A stretch of DNA of 64,000 bases from Agrococcus jenensis (GTDB taxonomy: Bacteria; Actinomycetota; Actinomycetes; Actinomycetales; Microbacteriaceae). Shown one piece after another: positions 39,566 through 53,118 of the stretch. The stretch is taken from contig NZ_RKHJ01000001.1 in NCBI RefSeq assembly GCF_003752465.1, positions 868,001-932,000 on the forward strand, in the 5' to 3' direction. Position 1 is the first letter of the stretch, and each line of letters begins with the position of its first letter. Under the pieces are notes generated by a model. It searched no databases. It saw only the letters and a program-made list of their open reading frames with translations, and was not told the origin of the DNA. Position numbers and translations under genes: made by a program.

Positions 39566-40465
39566 TCAGCGGGCGGTAGCGACGAGGGCCGCGACGAGCG
39601 CCTGCGCGTTCGGGCGCTGCGCGATGCCCGCGACCTGCAGGCCGTACTTGCGGCAGTCCTCCGCCGTCTGCTCGCCGATCGCGATGATGCGGGTCTCGGC
39701 CGCGAGGCCGAGCCGCGCGACCTGCTTCGCCACCGAGCCGGAGGTGACGAGCACCGCGTCGATGGGCGTCTCCGCGGGCTCGACGGCCGTGAGCACGGCG
39801 TCGTGGGCGCCCTGCTCCGTGACGTGGTCCCTGTCCTGCTGCTCGCGGGCGTCCTGCTCGCGGGCGTCCCGCTCGGCCGCCGCGGGGCCCTGTGCGGCCT
39901 GCTGCTCCTGCGCGTCCGTCCTCGCGGGATGCGCCGGGGCACCGACGATCGGGATCGCTCCGGTCTGCGTCGTCACGGCCTCGACGAGCTGCTCGCCCGA
40001 CTCGAACACCGGCACCGTGCGGTAGGCGACCACCTCGGTGACCTGCATGCCGTGCTGGCGCAGCCCGCTCGCGATCGTCGGCCGCGCGTCGAGCGCGTGC
40101 GGCCACAGCACCCGGCCCTCGCGGATCGGCCACTCGTCGACGAGCCCGGCCGCGGACTGCCGCGTGGGGATGAACGCGACCGGCACCCCGCGCTCGCGCA
40201 GCGATGCCGCCGTCACCGAGCCGACGGCCGCGACCTGCACGGACGAGGGCACGCGCGGCAGCACCCGCACGGTCGACTGGCTCGTGACGACCAGCCAGTC
40301 GAAGCGGCCCTCCGCGAGCTGCCCGAGGATCTGCTGCAGCCGCTGCTGGTCCTCGGCGGGCTCGATCTGCACGAGCGGCAGGATGAGCGGCTCGAGGCCG
40401 GCATCGGTGACGAGCTCGGCCACCTCGTCGCCCCAGGTGCCGCCTCGGGGGATCAGGACGCGCAT
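39566..40465 (-). CDS. hemD: Uroporphyrinogen-III synthase HemD with low-complexity insertion
   Basis: The 299-residue product has HemD elements: MRVLIPRGG, DWLVVTSQSTVRVL, VAAVGSVTA, VVAYRTVP and, in the second half, DAVLVTSGSVAKQVA and IAIGEQTAEDCRKYG. HemD closes the tetrapyrrole ring with inversion of ring D. About residues 170-232 are an extra segment rich in Gln, Asp, Glu and Arg, including a DAREQ repeat, placed in the second domain between YRTVP and the next strand. The SD GGAGGAA precedes the ATG. Last gene of the heme operon, 116 nt after hemC. Confidence 0.88.
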   Translation of the reverse strand: MRVLIPRGGTWGDEVAELVTDAGLEPLILPLVQIEPAEDQQRLQQILGQLAEGRFDWLVVTSQSTVRVLPRVPSSVQVAAVGSVTAASLRERGVPVAFIPTRQSAAGLVDEWPIREGRVLWPHALDARPTIASGLRQHGMQVTEVVAYRTVPVFESGEQLVEAVTTQTGAIPIVGAPAHPARTDAQEQQAAQGPAAAERDAREQDAREQQDRDHVTEQGAHDAVLTAVEPAETPIDAVLVTSGSVAKQVARLGLAAETRIIAIGEQTAEDCRKYGLQVAGIAQRPNAQALVAALVATAR

Positions 40466-40581
40466 GGGTTCCTCCGGAATCGGTGGTGGGTGCTCCGCAT
40501 CCTCGCAGACCCAGCCGGGCTCGTGGTCACGGCCCGTCGTCACAGGGGTGGTCGCTGCACGCGGCCGCGCTCGGCCGGCGG

Positions 40582-41522
<941 letters not shown>

Positions 41523-41526
<4 letters not shown>

Positions 41527-42836
41527 GGCTGCAGCCCCGCGATCGCCGGCCGGAACCCGAGGCGCGGGTTCTCGCAGCAGCCCGGCCGGCAGACGTCGTA
41601 CCAGGTGTGGATCGAGGTGACCGACTTGCGCTCGGCCTCCGGCCGGCCCTCGAGGCGCTCCTGCACGAGGTCGACGAGCGCGCCCACGTACTGCGGATCG
41701 ATGCCGGGGGTCGGCGCGCGGCGCGCCCACAGCCCCGCCTCGGTGGCCGTCTCGATGGCCTCCTCGTCGAGGTCCCACATGACCTCCATGTGGTCGCTCA
41801 CGAAGCCGAGCGGCACGATCACGATGGCCTTGCGCGACTCGAGCGCCTCGATTGCGTCGTTGATGTCGGGCTCGAGCCACGGCTGCGACGCGGGGCCGGA
41901 GCGCGACTGGTAGACGAGCTGCCAGGCGATGCCGGGCGCCGCCTCCGCCATCACGTGCTCGGCGGCGGCGAGGTGCTGGCCCTCGTAGCCGCCGCCCGGC
42001 CCCCACTCGTGCAGGTCGGGTGCGCCGGAGCGCTCCGCGTCGGCGGTCGGGATCGAGTGGGTCGCGAAGAGCACCTCGATCTCGGCGTCGGCGAAGCCCG
42101 CCTCGCGCGCCTCGGCGACGGATGCGCGCACGCCGTCGACGAAGGTCGCCAGGAAGCCCGGGTGGTTGAAGAACTGCCGCACCTTGTCGATCTGCATCGA
42201 CGCCTGCAGGCCGGTCGCCTCGAGCGCATCCGCCCAGTCCTCGCGGTACTGGCGGCACGACGAGTAGGACGAGTAGGCCGAGGTGGGGATGGCGATCAGG
42301 CGCGTGGCGCCCGCGTCGGCGGCCTGCTGCAGCGCCTCGTCGAGGTAGGGCGCCCAGTTGCGGTTGCCCCAGTAGACGGGCAGGTCGACGCCGGCGGCCG
42401 CGAGCGCGCCCTCGAGCGCCGCCTTGAGCTCGCGGTTCTGCTCGTTGATGGGGCTCACGCCGCCGAAGTGGCGGTAGTGGCCCGCGACCTCCTCGAGGCG
42501 CTCGTCGGGGATGCCGCGGCCGCGCGTGACGTTGCGGAGGAAGGGGATGACGTCGTCCTGCCCCTCCGGGCCGCCGAAGCCCGACAGCAGGATGCCGTCG
42601 TAGGCGACCGGCTCCTCCACGTGCTCGGGGCCCGCCTGCGCAGCCGGGCTCGCGCTCGGCACGGCGGCACCCGGCTCGAGGTGCACGGAGGTCGCTGCCG
42701 GCGCCTTCGTCTCGCGCCGCTGCGGTGCCTGCTGCTCCGCCTGCTGCTGCTCGCCCTGCTGCTGCACGGCATTCGATGCGGACGTGCCGCAGCACCCACC
42801 GCCGCAGCAGCCGCCGGTCGTCGTCGTGTCGCTCAT
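41523..42836 (-). CDS. hemH: Coproporphyrin ferrochelatase CpfC/HemH with Cys-rich tail
   Basis: The 437-residue product has the ferrochelatase core from about residue 77 (DGILLSGFGGPEGQDDVIPF, PINEQNR, VYWGNRNWAP, FATHSIP with the catalytic His, QSRSGP). Cys in SSYSSCRQY and three Cys near the C-terminus (DVCRPGCCENPR) match the [2Fe-2S] ligands of actinobacterial enzymes. The first 76 residues are extra: GGCCGGGCCG followed by a Gln-rich stretch and a Pro/Ala linker. It inserts iron into coproporphyrin III in the coproporphyrin-dependent pathway. Coupled to hemQ (ATGA). Confidence 0.9.
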
Positions 42837-43555
42837 GCGAGCACCTCCTCGATCTCGTCGGCCGCGATCCGGCGGCCCGTGAAGAATGGGATCTCGTCGC
42901 GCACGTGCATGCGCGCCTCGACGGCCCGCAGCTCGCGCATCATGTCGACGAGCTCGGTCAGCTCGTCCGCCTCGAGCGGCAGGATCCACTCGTAGTCGCC
43001 GAGCGCGAACGCCGAGACGGTGTTCGCCACGACGCCGCGGTAGGCGGCGCCGGCGCGGCCGTGCTCGGCGAGCATCCGGCCGCGGTCCTCGGCCGGCAGC
43101 AGGTACCAGTCGTACGAGCGGTTGAACGGGTAGACCGTCACCCACCGCTTCGGCTCGATGCCGCGCATGTAGCCCGGCACGTGCCGCTTGTTGAACTCGG
43201 CGTCGCGGTGCACGCCCATCGCGCCCCACGTCTGCGTGGTGCCCGCGAGCTCGCGGGTGCGGCGCACCCGGCGCACGGCCGCCTGCAGCGCCTGCGGCTC
43301 GAGGGCGGCGCCGGGCGCCCCGTGCATCCACACCATCACGTCGGCGTCGTGGCGCATGCCTGAGACGTCGTAGATGCCGCGGACGACGATGCCCTCGCGC
43401 TCGAGCGCGGCGATCTCGTCGGCCAGCGACGTGCCCGCGCCCGAGGCGCCGTCGGCGGTCGCGCCGCGGCGGTGGACGCTCCAGATCGTGTAGCCGTCGT
43501 CCTGCTGCTGGTCGGCCTGCTCCTGACCGGCCTGCTGCGGCGTGTGCTCGCTCAT
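42833..43555 (-). CDS. hemQ: Coproheme decarboxylase HemQ (ChdC)
   Basis: The 240-residue chlorite-dismutase-family protein has GIYDVSGMRHDADVMVWMHG, FNKRHVPGYMRGIEPKRWVT, VYPFNRSYDWYLLP with the reactive Tyr, and VSAFALGDYEWIL. It oxidatively decarboxylates coproheme to heme b using peroxide. The N-terminal 20 residues are Gln-rich and unlike the core. It sits between hemY and hemH, with both junctions overlapping. Confidence 0.93.
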   Translation of the reverse strand: MSEHTPQQAGQEQADQQQDDGYTIWSVHRRGATADGASGAGTSLADEIAALEREGIVVRGIYDVSGMRHDADVMVWMHGAPGAALEPQALQAAVRRVRRTRELAGTTQTWGAMGVHRDAEFNKRHVPGYMRGIEPKRWVTVYPFNRSYDWYLLPAEDRGRMLAEHGRAGAAYRGVVANTVSAFALGDYEWILPLEADELTELVDMMRELRAVEARMHVRDEIPFFTGRRIAADEIEEVLA

Positions 43556-45183
43556 GCGTCTCCTCGCTCGTCTGCGTCTCGTGCTGCGGTGGCGGATGCG
43601 GCGGGCGGCGCCGCCCCGTCCGTCTCGTGGTGCGCGGCCCCCTCGGGGGCCACCTCGTCGGTCCACGGGGTGCCGGGCACCGCGAAGCGCTCGCGGCGGA
43701 TGCCGAGCGCCGCCCGCCGTGCGTCCGGCACGACCTGCGCGAGGCCGGTGCCCGCGACCGCGGCGCCGACCAGGACCAGGTTGCGGTGCGCGTCGGCGGC
43801 TTCGCGCAGCGCCTGGTGGCGGCCGCGCGCGCCGACCACGGTCGTCGGCTGCCCCTGCTCCCACCGCACGCGCGCGCTCGCGACCGGCTCCGGGAGGTCG
43901 CGGCCGAGGATCGCGCGCGCGTCCTGCAGCGCGAGCGCCGCGGCCGCGTCGTCGTCGAGTCCCTCGGTCGCCGGGGCGGCGGCGCCGGAGCCGTACGACA
44001 GCCGCACGACCTCGCGGCCATCGGCAGCGTCGCGCAGCCACGGCCACTTCGCGCTCGCGTGCGTCAGCGCCTTCGCCCGGATGCCGGGGGCGTCGGCCGC
44101 GACGAGCACGCCCGTGCCGCGCGGGTCGCCCGAGATCGCGCCGGGCGGGAGGACGAGCGTGACGAGCTCGACCGTGACGCCGGTCGCGTCGGTCGCGAGC
44201 GGCGCGAAGCCGTCGAGCCCGCCCAGCACGCGCAGCGCCTCCGGCTCCGGCAGCGCGACGACGAGCGACGAACCCGCGAAGGCGCCCGCATCCGTCTCGA
44301 CGGCCCAGCCGGTCGGCGTCGGCGACGCCGCGGTCACGCGCACCCCGGTGCGCAGGTCGGCGTGGTGCGCGCGAGCGCGCTCCGCGAGCGCCGCCGTGAT
44401 CCGGTGGACGCCGCCGCGGATGCCCTGCACCGCCGAGCCGGGCCGCTGCGCGTTGCTGGGCGCGGCGTCGCCGCGCGCCACGGCGGCGGCACGCTCCTCC
44501 AGCACGACGGCGACGGCGCCCGAGAGCGAGCCCGCCTGCGTGAGCGCGTTGTTGAGCCCCGGCGCGACCGTCGCGACGTCGAGCCGCTCGACGTCGGCGG
44601 AGTAGACGCCGCCCGCGAGCGGCGCCACGAGCCGGTCGAGCGCCTTGCGCCCCATGCGTCGCCGCACGAGCGGGCCGAGCGCGTCGTCCTTGCCGATGCG
44701 CAGCACCGGCATCAGCCGGTCCGCGTAGGCGCGGATCGCGCCGCCCCAGCCGAGCGCGTCGATGACGTCGCGGGCGAGCGGCGACGAGGGGATGCCGAGC
44801 AGGCTCGCCTTCGGCAGCGGCACCGCGCGGTCGCCCAGCTGCAGCCACGCGCCCGCCGGGTTCGGCGAGACGATGTCGTCGGCGAGGCCGAGCTCCGCAG
44901 CGAGCTCGGCGACGGCGCCGCCGCGGGTGGCGAACGACTCGGCGCCGGCGTCGAGCGCGAGCCCCGCGACGTCGATGCCGGTGGCCACGCCGCCCAGACG
45001 ATCGGAGGCCTCGAGCACGAGCACGCGGTAGCCCCGTCCGGCGAGGTCGTGCGCGACGGTCAGGCCGGCGGCGCCGGCGCCGACGACGATCGAGTCCCAC
45101 CGCTGCCCCTCGGGCAGCGGGGTCTCCGGCAGCGAGCCCTCGGGCAGCGGGGTCGCGTCCGCCTGCCCAGCGTCAGCGGTCAC
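43552..45183 (-). CDS. hemY: Coproporphyrinogen III oxidase CgoX/HemY with terminal tails
   Basis: The 543-residue flavoenzyme has an FAD Rossmann motif (IVVGAGAAGLTVAHDL, LEASDRLGG), AESFATRGG, and the C-terminal family segment LVLVGAAVAGTGLAQVVPDA. It makes coproporphyrin III from coproporphyrinogen III. The first 28 residues contain the repeat PLPEGSLPETPLPEGQRW and about 45 residues at the C-terminus are Ala/Glu/Asp-rich; both look disordered. GTG start overlapping the hemE stop. Confidence 0.92.
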   Translation of the reverse strand: MTADAGQADATPLPEGSLPETPLPEGQRWDSIVVGAGAAGLTVAHDLAGRGYRVLVLEASDRLGGVATGIDVAGLALDAGAESFATRGGAVAELAAELGLADDIVSPNPAGAWLQLGDRAVPLPKASLLGIPSSPLARDVIDALGWGGAIRAYADRLMPVLRIGKDDALGPLVRRRMGRKALDRLVAPLAGGVYSADVERLDVATVAPGLNNALTQAGSLSGAVAVVLEERAAAVARGDAAPSNAQRPGSAVQGIRGGVHRITAALAERARAHHADLRTGVRVTAASPTPTGWAVETDAGAFAGSSLVVALPEPEALRVLGGLDGFAPLATDATGVTVELVTLVLPPGAISGDPRGTGVLVAADAPGIRAKALTHASAKWPWLRDAADGREVVRLSYGSGAAAPATEGLDDDAAAALALQDARAILGRDLPEPVASARVRWEQGQPTTVVGARGRHQALREAADAHRNLVLVGAAVAGTGLAQVVPDARRAALGIRRERFAVPGTPWTDEVAPEGAAHHETDGAAPPAASATAARDADERGDA

Positions 45184-46304
45184 CGCGCGTGCACCGCCTG
45201 CACGACGCGCGTCAGCACATCCGGGTCGGTCGACGGCGGCACGCCGTGGCCGAGGTTGAACACGTGCGCGCGGGCGACGGAGCCGGCCATCATCACGTGG
45301 TCGATCGCCGCCTCGACGATCTCCCACGGGGCGCCGAGCACGGCGGGGTCGAGGTTGCCCTGCACCGTCACGTCGGAGCCGATGCGCTCGAGCGCGACGT
45401 CGAGCGGCACGCGCCAGTCGACGCCGACGCAGTCGACGTCGAGGTCCATCGCGCCGTAGAGCTCGCCCGCGCCGACGCCGAAGTGCACGAGCGGCACCCG
45501 GCGGCCGGAGGCGTCGACGAGGTCGCGCACGGCGTCGAGCGCGATGCGCGAGGCCGGCGCGACGTGCTCGCGGTACTGCTCGAGCGGCAGCGAGCCCGCC
45601 CACGAGTCGAAGAGCTGGGCCGCCGAGGCGCCCTCCTCGACCTGCGCGCGGAGGAAGCGCCCGGTGACGTCGGCGGTCCAGCGCGCGAGCCGGTCCCAGG
45701 CATCCGGGAACGCACGCATGAGCGTGCGGGCCTCGAGGTGGTCCTTCGAGGGACGCCCCGCGACGAGGTAGGCGGCGAGCGTGAACGGAGCGCCCGCGAA
45801 GCCGATGAGCGGGGTCGAGCCGTCGCCGATCGCGGCGAGGCCGGCGACCGTCTGCCGCACGCCCTCGCGCACAGGCTCGAGCGCGCCGTCGAGCGTTGCC
45901 GGGTCGAGCGAGACGAGCCGCTCGACGTCCTCCGGCGTGCGGATCGGCTGCGCGACCACCGGGCCGACGCCCGGCTCGATCTTCACGTCGACGCCCGCGA
46001 GCCGCAGCGGCACCATGATGTCGCTGAAGAAGATGGCGGCGTCGACGCCGTGGCGGCGCACCGGCTGCAGCGTGATCTCGCTCGCGAGCGCGGGGTCGAG
46101 GCACGTGTCGAGCATGTCGCGCTCCGGGCCGTCGGTGCGGCGGCGCAGCTCGCGGTACTCGGGCAGCGATCGACCGGCCTGCCGCATGAACCAGACGGGG
46201 GTCACCGCGGGGCGGTCGCCGCGGTACGCCCGCACCAGCCCGGACGAGCCGGTGCGGGTGCTGAGCGGGTGGTCTTCGCGGAGAGCAGGCATCCCCTCCA
46301 TCAT
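45180..46304 (-). CDS. hemE: Uroporphyrinogen decarboxylase HemE
   Basis: The 374-residue product has PVWFMRQAGRSLPEYRELR, FFSDIMVPL, GFAGAPFTLAAYLV and FNLGHGVPPSTDP. It decarboxylates uroporphyrinogen III to coproporphyrinogen III and is the first gene of the operon hemE-Y-Q-H-C-D. ATGs at 46304, 46301 and 46292 are possible; the first is listed. It follows the Asp23-family gene by 33 nt on the same strand, so some transcription may read through from the sigma-factor operon. Confidence 0.94.
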   Translation of the reverse strand: MMEGMPALREDHPLSTRTGSSGLVRAYRGDRPAVTPVWFMRQAGRSLPEYRELRRRTDGPERDMLDTCLDPALASEITLQPVRRHGVDAAIFFSDIMVPLRLAGVDVKIEPGVGPVVAQPIRTPEDVERLVSLDPATLDGALEPVREGVRQTVAGLAAIGDGSTPLIGFAGAPFTLAAYLVAGRPSKDHLEARTLMRAFPDAWDRLARWTADVTGRFLRAQVEEGASAAQLFDSWAGSLPLEQYREHVAPASRIALDAVRDLVDASGRRVPLVHFGVGAGELYGAMDLDVDCVGVDWRVPLDVALERIGSDVTVQGNLDPAVLGAPWEIVEAAIDHVMMAGSVARAHVFNLGHGVPPSTDPDVLTRVVQAVHAR

Positions 46305-50338: not shown

Positions 50339-51697
50339 GTGCTCATCTGCCTGACGGCGAGTCACAAGAACGCCGACTTCACTGCCCTCGAGGCACTGTC
50401 GACGGCTGACGCCTCACAGCTGCCCAGCTCCTTCGCCTCGCACCCCGCTGTCGACGGGGCGGTCGTCGTCTCGACCTGCAACCGCTTCGAGGTGTACCTC
50501 GACATCGACGCCGAGGCGGATGACGCGGCCGGCATCGCGCAGACCGTCGCGGCCGACGCGCTCGGCTTCCACCAGCCCGAGACGCTCGAGCCGCTCGCCG
50601 ACGTCGAGGCCGCGGAGCACCTGTTCGCCGTCGCCGCCGGCCTCGAGTCGGTCGTCGTGGGCGAGGGCGAGATCGCCGGCCAGGTGCGACGGGCGCTGCA
50701 GTCGGCGCAGGTCGCCGGCACCACGTCGCCGCACCTCGAGCGCCTCTTCCAGCGCGCCTCCGAGACGCAGCGCGGCATCAAGAACCGCACGGGCATCGGC
50801 GAGGCCGGCCGCTCGATCGTGCGCCTCGCGCTCGACCTCGCGAGCGCGCGCGTCGACTTCGTGGACGCTCGCGTGCTGCTCGTCGGCACCGGCCGCTTCG
50901 CGGGCGTCTCGCTCGCCGAGCTGCGTCGCCGCGGCGCGAAGCACATCGAGGTCTGGAGCCCGTCCGACCGCGGCGAGGGCTTCGCCCGCAGCCACGCGAT
51001 CGGTCACGTCGACGCGCGCGACGCCGCGCTCGCCGCAGCGTCCGCCGACGTCATCGTCACCTGCACGAGCGCCGACCGGTTCGTCGTCGACGCCGCCCTG
51101 CTGCACGCCGGCCGCGCGCGGCTCGCGACGCACGACTTCCCCGGTCAGGCGCACGACGCCGCGACCTGCCCCGTCGCCCTCGGCGGCACGAGCGCGGGAT
51201 GCCCGATGCACGCCGCCGGCGCGACGGTGGCGGGCTGCCCGGTCGAGCACGGCCGCGGCGCGCAGCTCGTCATCGACATGGGCATGCCCCGCAACGTCGA
51301 CCCGGATGTCGCGACGGTCGCCGGGGTCGAGGTGCTCGACCTCGAGACCATCCGCCTGCACGCGCCGCTCGAGCACCTGACCGCCGCCGCCGATGCCCGC
51401 GACCTCGTGCGCAAGGCCGCGCGCCGGTTCGAGCGCGGCACGGAGGAGCGCCGCCTGGGACCCGCGATCGCCGCGCTGCGCCAGCACGTCGAGGAGGCCA
51501 TGGAGGCCGAGCTCGCCCGCGTCGCGAAGCGCGGCAGCGAGGAGGAGCGGCGCGCCGCCGAGCAGGCCCTGCGCCACTTCGCCGGGGTGCTCCTGCACAA
51601 GCCGACGGTGCGCGCGCGCGAGCTCGCCGCCGAGGGCCGTCACGACGACTTCCTGTCGGCGATCGACGCGCTCTACGGCATCGACGACGTGGCGTGA
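50339..51697 (+). CDS. hemA: Glutamyl-tRNA reductase HemA with Cys-Pro-rich insertion
   Basis: The 452-residue product has the catalytic Cys47 in VVSTCNRFEVY, the substrate-domain motif VVGEGEIAGQVRRAL, and VLLVGTGRFAGVSLAELRRR in the NADPH domain, then GMPRNVDPDV and a helical dimerisation domain. It makes glutamate-1-semialdehyde from Glu-tRNA, the first committed step. Residues about 260-308, in the NADPH domain before the VIDMGMPRN strand, carry three Cys-Pro pairs: TCPV (Cys277), GCPM (Cys288) and GCPVEH (Cys300), like heme regulatory motifs. Feedback by heme is a reasonable hypothesis. GTG start, leaderless. Confidence 0.95.
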   Translation: MLICLTASHKNADFTALEALSTADASQLPSSFASHPAVDGAVVVSTCNRFEVYLDIDAEADDAAGIAQTVAADALGFHQPETLEPLADVEAAEHLFAVAAGLESVVVGEGEIAGQVRRALQSAQVAGTTSPHLERLFQRASETQRGIKNRTGIGEAGRSIVRLALDLASARVDFVDARVLLVGTGRFAGVSLAELRRRGAKHIEVWSPSDRGEGFARSHAIGHVDARDAALAAASADVIVTCTSADRFVVDAALLHAGRARLATHDFPGQAHDAATCPVALGGTSAGCPMHAAGATVAGCPVEHGRGAQLVIDMGMPRNVDPDVATVAGVEVLDLETIRLHAPLEHLTAAADARDLVRKAARRFERGTEERRLGPAIAALRQHVEEAMEAELARVAKRGSEEERRAAEQALRHFAGVLLHKPTVRARELAAEGRHDDFLSAIDALYGIDDVA

Positions 51698-53118
51698 CCG
51701 GCCAGGACGAGAGCACGGCGACCGGCGACCACGCGATCCTGCCGCCCGCCGGGGTCGAGACCGACCCGCGCGAGACGGCCGGCGCACCCGCGCCCGCGAA
51801 GCGCCGACGGCTCGTCGACCTCGCACCGCTGACGGCCTCCCCCGTCTTCGCCCGGCTGTGGATCGGCAACGCGATCAGCGGCATCGGCGCGCAGATGACC
51901 GTCGTCGCGGTCGGCCTGCAGATCTTCGACATGACCGGCAGCACCATGGCGGTCGCCCTCGTCGGCGGCATCGCCCTGCTGCCGATGGTGGTCGCGGGCC
52001 TCTGGGGCGGGATGATCGCCGACGCCTTCGACCGCCGCGCCGTGCTCATCGTCTCGAGCCTCGTCGGCTGGGCGGCGGTGCTGGGCCTCGTGGCGCTCTC
52101 GACCTGGGACGCGGCGCTCGTCGCCGACGGGGAGCGCGCGCTCGTCTGGCCGTTCTACGTGCTCACGACGCTCAACACCGTCGCCGCGACCGTCTCGGGG
52201 GCGACGCGCTCGGCCGTCACGCCGCGCATCCTGCCCGCGCACCTGATCTCGCGCGCGACCGCGCTCAACGGCATCGCGATCGGCATCATGCTGACCGTCG
52301 GGCCGGCGCTCGCGGGCGTGCTCGTCGCCGGCGTCGGCCTGCCGATCACGTTCGCGATCGACGCGGTGCTCTTCACCGCCGGGTTCGTCGGCATCCTCGG
52401 GCTGCCGCGGTTGCCGCCGCTCGGCGCGGTCGCGAAGCCCGGCCTCGAGTCGCTGCTCGACGGTTGGCGGTTCCTGCGGCAGGCGCCGAACATCCGGATG
52501 TCGTTCCTCGTCGACATCATCGCCATGTCGTTCGGCCGCCCCTTCGCGCTGCTCCCGGCGGTCGGCGCGATCGCGATCGGCGGCGGCCCGATCACCGTCG
52601 GCGTGCTCACCGCCGCCGCTGCGGTCGGCACGCTGCTCGCGAGCCTCTTCTCCGGCCCCGTCGCGCACGTGCACCGGCACGGCGTCGCCGTCGCCCGGGC
52701 GATCACCGTCTACGGCGCGTTCGTCGCGCTCTTCGGCGCCGTGCTGCTCGCGATGTCGCTCGGATGGGGCGGCCCGGTCGGCGCGGACTGGTCGCAGGTC
52801 GCGTGGCCGGCGCTCGCCGTCTCGGCGCTCGCGCTCGCCGGCATGGGCGCGAGCGACGAGATCAGCGCCATCTTCCGCTCGACCATGATGCTGACCGCCG
52901 CACCCGACGAGATGCGCGGGCGCACGCAGGGGCTGTTCACCGTGGTCGTCGCGGGCGGACCGCGCATCGGCGACCTCTACGCGGGCGCCGCCGCGAGCCT
53001 CGTCGCCCTGTGGTGCCCGCCGCTCATCGGCGGGCTCCTCATCGTCGCGCTCATCGCGGTCGTCACGCGCGCGCAGCGCTCCTTCCTCGCCTACGACGCC
53101 CGCACGCCGACGCCGTAG
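51694..53118 (+). CDS. MFS transporter, coupled to hemA
   Basis: The 474-residue protein has a 45-residue hydrophilic N-terminus and about 11-12 transmembrane helices (FARLWIGNAISGIGAQMTVV, GLWGGMIADAFDRRAVLIVS, TRSAVTPRILPAHLISRATA), the pattern of the MFS_3/enterobactin-exporter-like branch. GTGA overlap with hemA makes it part of the hemA transcript. A link to tetrapyrrole or siderophore export is possible but only positional. Confidence 0.85.
   Translation: MTGQDESTATGDHAILPPAGVETDPRETAGAPAPAKRRRLVDLAPLTASPVFARLWIGNAISGIGAQMTVVAVGLQIFDMTGSTMAVALVGGIALLPMVVAGLWGGMIADAFDRRAVLIVSSLVGWAAVLGLVALSTWDAALVADGERALVWPFYVLTTLNTVAATVSGATRSAVTPRILPAHLISRATALNGIAIGIMLTVGPALAGVLVAGVGLPITFAIDAVLFTAGFVGILGLPRLPPLGAVAKPGLESLLDGWRFLRQAPNIRMSFLVDIIAMSFGRPFALLPAVGAIAIGGGPITVGVLTAAAAVGTLLASLFSGPVAHVHRHGVAVARAITVYGAFVALFGAVLLAMSLGWGGPVGADWSQVAWPALAVSALALAGMGASDEISAIFRSTMMLTAAPDEMRGRTQGLFTVVVAGGPRIGDLYAGAAASLVALWCPPLIGGLLIVALIAVVTRAQRSFLAYDARTPTP

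Follow-up and report, generated by a model that had tools for sequence, protein, structure and literature searches.

Cysteine-proline (CP) motifs are kept on variable parts of actinomycete glutamyl-tRNA reductase (GluTR, HemA) far above chance, and at three nonequivalent regions of the enzyme: an insert in the NADPH domain, the C-terminal tail, and the interdomain linker. Judging from the sequences, it is fairly probable that the motif serves heme feedback on this first enzyme of the C5 pathway, reducing ALA synthesis by way of a flexible tether.

The hemA gene lies in a window of 64,000 nucleotides of Agrococcus jenensis DNA (Table 1). Its product scored 437 bits against the NCBIfam model NF000750 (cut-off, 289), matched the Pfam domains GlutR_N, Shikimate_DH, and GlutR_dimer, and has its nearest named relatives, among the matches listed, in Agrococcus. 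A protein query against the single 2.96-Mb contig returned one hemA copy in the genome. Three CP motifs within an insertion of HemA had been predicted, and translation reproduced their positions and residues exactly: TGC-CCN codons at positions 51167, 51200, and 51236 correspond to C277, C288, and C300, with spacings of 11 and 12 residues. The residues at +2 after these cysteines are V, M, and V, and a His is close to motifs 2 and 3, not to motif 1. Besides these, HemA contains C4, C242, and C47, the last of which lies in the TCNR stretch and is taken here to be the expected catalytic cysteine of GluTR. No CXXCH sequence, the site of covalent heme attachment, was found in the HemA translation.

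Alignment of HemA to 1gpj with phmmer gave two stretches, the first ending at 1gpj residue 242 and the second starting at residue 257, with the insert between them. From VTCTS to DMGMPRN, the loop of the window HemA measures 68 residues; CP-free loops are mostly 17 to 30 residues long, and some reach 86. Inserts appear rich in A, G, P, and S, and from their varying length and composition we infer that the insert is flexible and surface exposed.

Table 1. Features of the window, with the Streptomyces catalase/peroxidase gene found by motif scan (positions on its own locus)
Feature	Position	Strand	Basis or remark
hemA, glutamyl-tRNA reductase (GluTR), 452 aa, GTG start	50339..51697	+	Translation, NCBIfam, Pfam
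TCNR with C47	50474..50485	+	Intact; invariant across 81-row alignment
Variable NADPH-domain insert, residues about 262-308	51122..51262	+	Between VTCTS strand and QLVIDMGMPRN strand
CP motif 1, C277-P-V (TCPV)	51167..51175	+	Translation; relatives
CP motif 2, C288-P-M-H (GCPMH)	51200..51211	+	Translation; genome pattern scan
CP motif 3, C300-P-V-E-H (GCPVEH)	51236..51250	+	Translation; genome pattern scan; relatives
MFS transporter gene; top-scoring models (EntS, H+ antiporter) fall below their cut-offs	51694..53118	+	Start overlaps hemA stop
hemE, hemY, hemQ/chdC, hemH/cpfC, hemC, probable hemD	39566..46304	-	Profile matches; directed away from hemA
hemH/cpfC, starts MSDTTTTGGCCGGGCCG: CC-x3-CC cluster, then Q-rich stretch	41523-42836	-	CRPGCC near C-terminus
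Streptomyces catalase/peroxidase, GCPVDHGR near N-terminus	L401 1900-4131	+	1277 bits, cut-off 981

HemA was present in all 24 genomes of the genus searched. In the 23 read through, the insert carries three CP pairs in 17, two in 3, and one in 3; genome G401, where HemA reads in two frames, was left out of this count. The two reading frames of the G401 gene (loci L081 and L087) diverge within the insert. Among the first 33 listed matches to the window HemA, 32 have three CP pairs and 1 has two, with spacings of 10 to 59 between the first and second and of 10 to 13 between the second and third. The last motif reads CP[VI]xHGR in 42 of the 43 first-listed matches, the exception having C-T in place of C-P. 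When all 120 listed matches were considered, at least one loop CP was seen in 101, 18 had no loop Cys, and 1 had a Cys without Pro. Across Agrococcus, the CP pairs persist although the linkers differ in length and sequence. Conservation among close relatives with the insert had been proposed as a check on the original prediction, and these relatives did retain the CP pairs despite drift of the surrounding residues.

The distribution of the motif was then read across actinomycetes. Genomes were searched in five sets (genomes with a match in parentheses): 199 Microbacteriaceae (177), 196 class-wide (175), 24 from the genus (24), 20 split-match (20), and 120 Micrococcaceae (120). GluTRs were read from part of these, giving 309 sequences from 143 genera, after G401 and G331, in which the end of the locus cuts hemA, had been dropped. 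Microbacteriaceae contributed 162 rows, drawn from the first three sets, of which 23 are from Agrococcus, an oversampled genus; Micrococcaceae contributed 70 of 120 genomes, 30 of them top scoring and 40 chosen for genus coverage. A CP motif was found in one variable region in 129 genomes, in two regions in 1, and in none in 179. The motif is thus dispensable, since those 179 GluTRs include 101 of 162 Microbacteriaceae and all 51 from the remaining actinomycete groups (0 of 42 genera). CP-bearing sequences were found in 61 Microbacteriaceae genomes and 20 of 63 genera of that family, located in the insert in 50, the C-terminal tail in 10, and both in 1. In Micrococcaceae (f2), 50 of 70 genomes and 22 of 31 genera carry the motif, which lies in the tail in 49 and in the linker in 1 (CPP, genome G430). 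A linker CP occurs in 6 of 9 genomes and 4 of 6 genera of the Nocardiopsis-containing family (f18), and a Streptomyces-containing genus group (g100) has CP in 13 of 17 genomes, with an NADPH-domain insert of 116 to 169 residues. The original prediction had suggested a possible heme sensor in the insertion; the CP pairs are indeed kept in relatives, but they are not tied to this insertion, being found at the C terminus or in the linker elsewhere.

The 120 listed Micrococcaceae matches, retrieved with a query that itself carries CPVDH, have one tail Cys each, always as CP, with CPVDH in 95 and a tail that varies; because they are the nearest relatives of that query, the family is more fairly represented by 49 of 70. 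For the 120 listed Nocardiopsis-type matches, the linker held CP in 53, Cys without CP in 3, and neither in 64, many of the last being anchor failures with a CP beside and the rest sequences without CP or Streptomyces rows. Genus g78 displays a change of place, with the motif in the insert in three genomes, in the C-terminal tail in one, and absent from one; HemA of G125 terminates in GCPVEHA, the Agrococcus motif at a different site; and G030 has CS where CP is expected. In genus g167 (loci L342 and L343), the tail reads FCRHH or FCQHH where relatives carry the CP motif, perhaps a different ligand arrangement. A second strong GluTR match was observed in the Micrococcaceae genomes G200, G468, and G435. 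NF000750 found no match in 22 of 199 Microbacteriaceae genomes and HemH none in 8 of 60, a possible sign of heme auxotrophy; in G012, HemH was matched and NF000750 was not.

Pro stood next to 169 of the 184 variable-region cysteines, compared to a mean of 19.0 and a maximum of 30 in 500 within-region shuffles, the regions having been defined by alignment columns after the motifs had been seen. In the core, which has its own constraint, 3 of 1044 cysteines are followed by Pro. With one genome per genus, 47.3 CP were counted against 5.4 after shuffling, which answers the oversampling of Agrococcus, and among the 50 genera with a variable-region Cys, CP was the majority state in 44, tied in 3, and the minority in 3. 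On a FastTree phylogeny of the core columns, the fewest site changes needed were 23, compared to 109 to 123 in 20 label shuffles, where changes do not separate gain from loss; counted by region, they were 10 for the insert, 13 for the tail, and 2 for the linker. The trait therefore tracks descent yet has changed many times.

The residues around the dipeptide are also restricted. At +2 after Cys, 149 distinct sites show V (96), A (15), L (13), M (9), I (8), and others (8), so that one of V, I, L, or M occupies 126 of 149 against a background of 17%. A His at +2 to +5 is found in 80 of 149 sites (expected, 8%) and is absent in 69. The predicted CP-hydrophobic-His anatomy is borne out statistically across the 149 sites, although motif 1 of the window HemA has no close His. 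This grammar resembles that of described CP heme regulatory motifs, including the motif of Irr.

The strong evidence against chance is this conservation. A DNA pattern for GCP[LIVM] followed by His within 0 to 6 bases matched 10 times in the 2.96-Mb genome, compared to 8 times in the reversed control; 2 of the 10 fall in hemA, 36 bp apart and in frame, and the other 8 were judged by eye to be out of frame of any recognizable gene. Without the leading Gly, 117 matches were obtained in both genome and control, at chance level; the genome is therefore not rich in CP-His motifs. Ten other proteins of the window contain 2 CP among 19 Cys, a count that used open reading frame starts, so that the CP of a sigma-factor frame may precede the true start. 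A CP-rich proteome is unsupported, with CP[VILM]-His at the control level and CP this infrequent in the other window proteins. A GC-restricted exact scan of genome contigs for [GA]CPV[ED]HGR, which is not a census, yielded 5 matches. Two are in a gene frame, one in HemA of Agrococcus terreus and one at the N terminus of a Streptomyces catalase/peroxidase, and the other 3 lie, by eye, outside any gene's frame.

The window also holds heme genes on the opposite strand, 4 to 11 kb from hemA; hemD was under all its cut-offs. With hemE, hemY, hemQ, hemH, hemC, and a probable hemD, the organism possesses genes belonging to the coproporphyrin route. The protein profile scan of HemH/CpfC ran from residue 13. 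Its Cys-rich N terminus was considered as a family-wide partner of the HemA motifs and discarded, as CC-x3-CC occurs in both Agrococcus loci compared and in none of the N-terminal stretches from 28 other Microbacteriaceae loci, a comparison of 30 loci out of 52 genomes with a HemH match. A CsbD stress gene lies directly upstream of hemA; Asp23-like genes nearby are our own reading, as Pfam named none. Among the 23 other Agrococcus genomes, 17 have the MFS gene after hemA, namely 16 with three CP pairs and G401. It was not found in the flanks covered for the 6 Agrococcus genomes with one or two CP pairs, although the contigs of two of these (G396 and G405) extend 222 and 645 bases past the hemA match. 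This co-occurrence with three CP pairs may reflect descent alone.

Several points count against heme feedback: in our judgment, a CP dipeptide by itself predicts heme binding poorly; the motif is missing from 179 of 309 GluTRs; 69 of 149 sites have no close His; and the CP-His pattern is not enriched in the genome. Heme is proposed as the ligand because CP has been much studied as a transient heme ligand, GluTR is first in the heme pathway, and ALAS bears CP motifs (PMC6154995, PMC12856317, PMC6356037). In the model we propose, the insert would be a flexible tether bearing CP-type heme regulatory motifs. At higher levels of labile heme, GluTR would bind heme through the cysteine thiolates and, in some motifs, a His close by, and we infer that binding lowers the abundance or activity of the enzyme. 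Less ALA would then be made, either because heme-bound GluTR is marked for proteolysis or because the NADPH domain is held off the catalytic domain; alternatively, the tether may deliver heme to the GluTR core. Control of abundance seems slightly likelier than direct inhibition, as the location of the motif on the enzyme seems of little matter. Since long stretches of chain separate the three regions, a position-independent effect fits better than a local effect on the loop; likewise, the occurrence of the motif at the C terminus or in the linker of relatives makes a tethered, position-independent mechanism likelier than a loop-specific one. The three motifs of Agrococcus may give higher avidity or a graded response. 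The chances are about even that a heme-sensing CP motif has repeatedly been gained, lost, or relocated among three flexible sites of actinomycete GluTR, as a C5 counterpart of the ALAS motifs with a position-independent tether and three copies in Agrococcus.

Other roles for these cysteines were weighed against heme feedback. The motif could be a docking element or degron recognized, independently of heme, by a partner such as a protease adaptor, HemL, GluRS, or ferrochelatase. A short linear motif found in any of three variable regions, and nearly always in just one, is docking-like; its consensus, however, fits the heme regulatory motif described for Irr, GCPWHD (PMC11442138), and a partner of GluTR would not account for CPVDHGR at the N terminus of a catalase/peroxidase, so that we regard docking as unlikely. 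A thiol redox switch, in which oxidative stress modifies or cross-links the cysteines and tunes ALA synthesis without heme, would suit the variable and probably exposed location of the cysteines, the CsbD stress gene next to hemA, and the two g167 genomes that have a tail Cys with HH and no Pro. Such a switch needs no Pro, hydrophobic residue, or His, all of which are strongly enriched, and outside the multi-CP Agrococcus lineages there is mostly one Cys per region; on balance, it is improbable.

Little weight is given to a structural or iron-sensing metal site, whether Zn or an Fe-S cluster, and we think it very improbable. The three Cys and the His of the window HemA could in principle ligate a metal. 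A Zn or Fe-S site would, however, call for about four Cys/His ligands kept among relatives, and CP-bearing relatives other than the multi-CP lineages mostly retain a single Cys of this kind in the region, which leaves few ligands for tetrahedral coordination. It is just as improbable that the insert is neutral and of low complexity, its CP pairs being a compositional accident or a product of shared ancestry. An A/G/P/S-rich appearance, GC-rich DNA that favors CCN codons, and a trait that follows descent on the core tree are in keeping with neutrality, but composition-preserving shuffles yielded 19 CP against 169 (one genome per genus, 5.4 against 47.3), which rejects compositional accident, and at least 23 site changes on the core tree make shared ancestry alone insufficient. 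The counts already render a neutral insert unlikely, unless the choice of regions was biased.

Heme feedback through the CP motif can be compared with several known systems. Salmonella HemA and the Chlorobium GluTR are reportedly heme-binding GluTRs. In Staphylococcus aureus, GtrR is described as able to bind heme, but this binding reportedly did not matter for heme homeostasis (PMC10991733), which weighs against the proposal. These three proteins share with our proposal a GluTR as the heme target, but their descriptions, in the parts available, mention no CP insert. In the Gram-positive bacteria treated there, control of GluTR by heme is described as acting via HemX or two-component systems (PMC10991733). 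No description of a CP motif on GluTR was found among the listings and passages of open-access literature examined, PMC12670364 included. The Streptomyces catalase/peroxidase, a heme enzyme with its own heme pocket, has near its N terminus a CPVDHGR stretch of the same type as the third HemA motif.

Cys-based peptides are reported to bind heme with dissociation constants of 0.4 to 6.4 μM, generally more tightly with an additional Tyr or His, and CP peptides to be five-coordinate whether or not another potential ligand is available (PMC6356037); the His near CP may therefore serve another role. The heme regulatory motif of Bradyrhizobium Irr is given as Gly-Cys-Pro-Trp-His-Asp, a bacterial GCP-hydrophobic-His sequence close to GCPMH and GCPVEH of HemA (PMC11442138). 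Irr, however, is described as a Fur-family transcription regulator that is degraded on a heme signal, whereas HemA is an enzyme (PMC3570980). Vertebrate ALAS1 and ALAS2, with which heme synthesis starts, reportedly bear several CP motifs, some in extensions, and heme reduces their import or activity (PMC12856317, PMC6154995). ALAS belongs to the C4 pathway and is unrelated to the C5 GluTR, where the motif occupies three regions and the effect of heme is putative. If the proposal is true, a sequence-encoded sensor, testable by substitution of Cys or Pro, would be present on GluTR in many Micrococcaceae, Microbacteriaceae, Streptomyces, and Nocardiopsis relatives; it would be a parallel, on an unrelated enzyme, to the regulation of ALAS and would offer a handle on ALA and porphyrin production.
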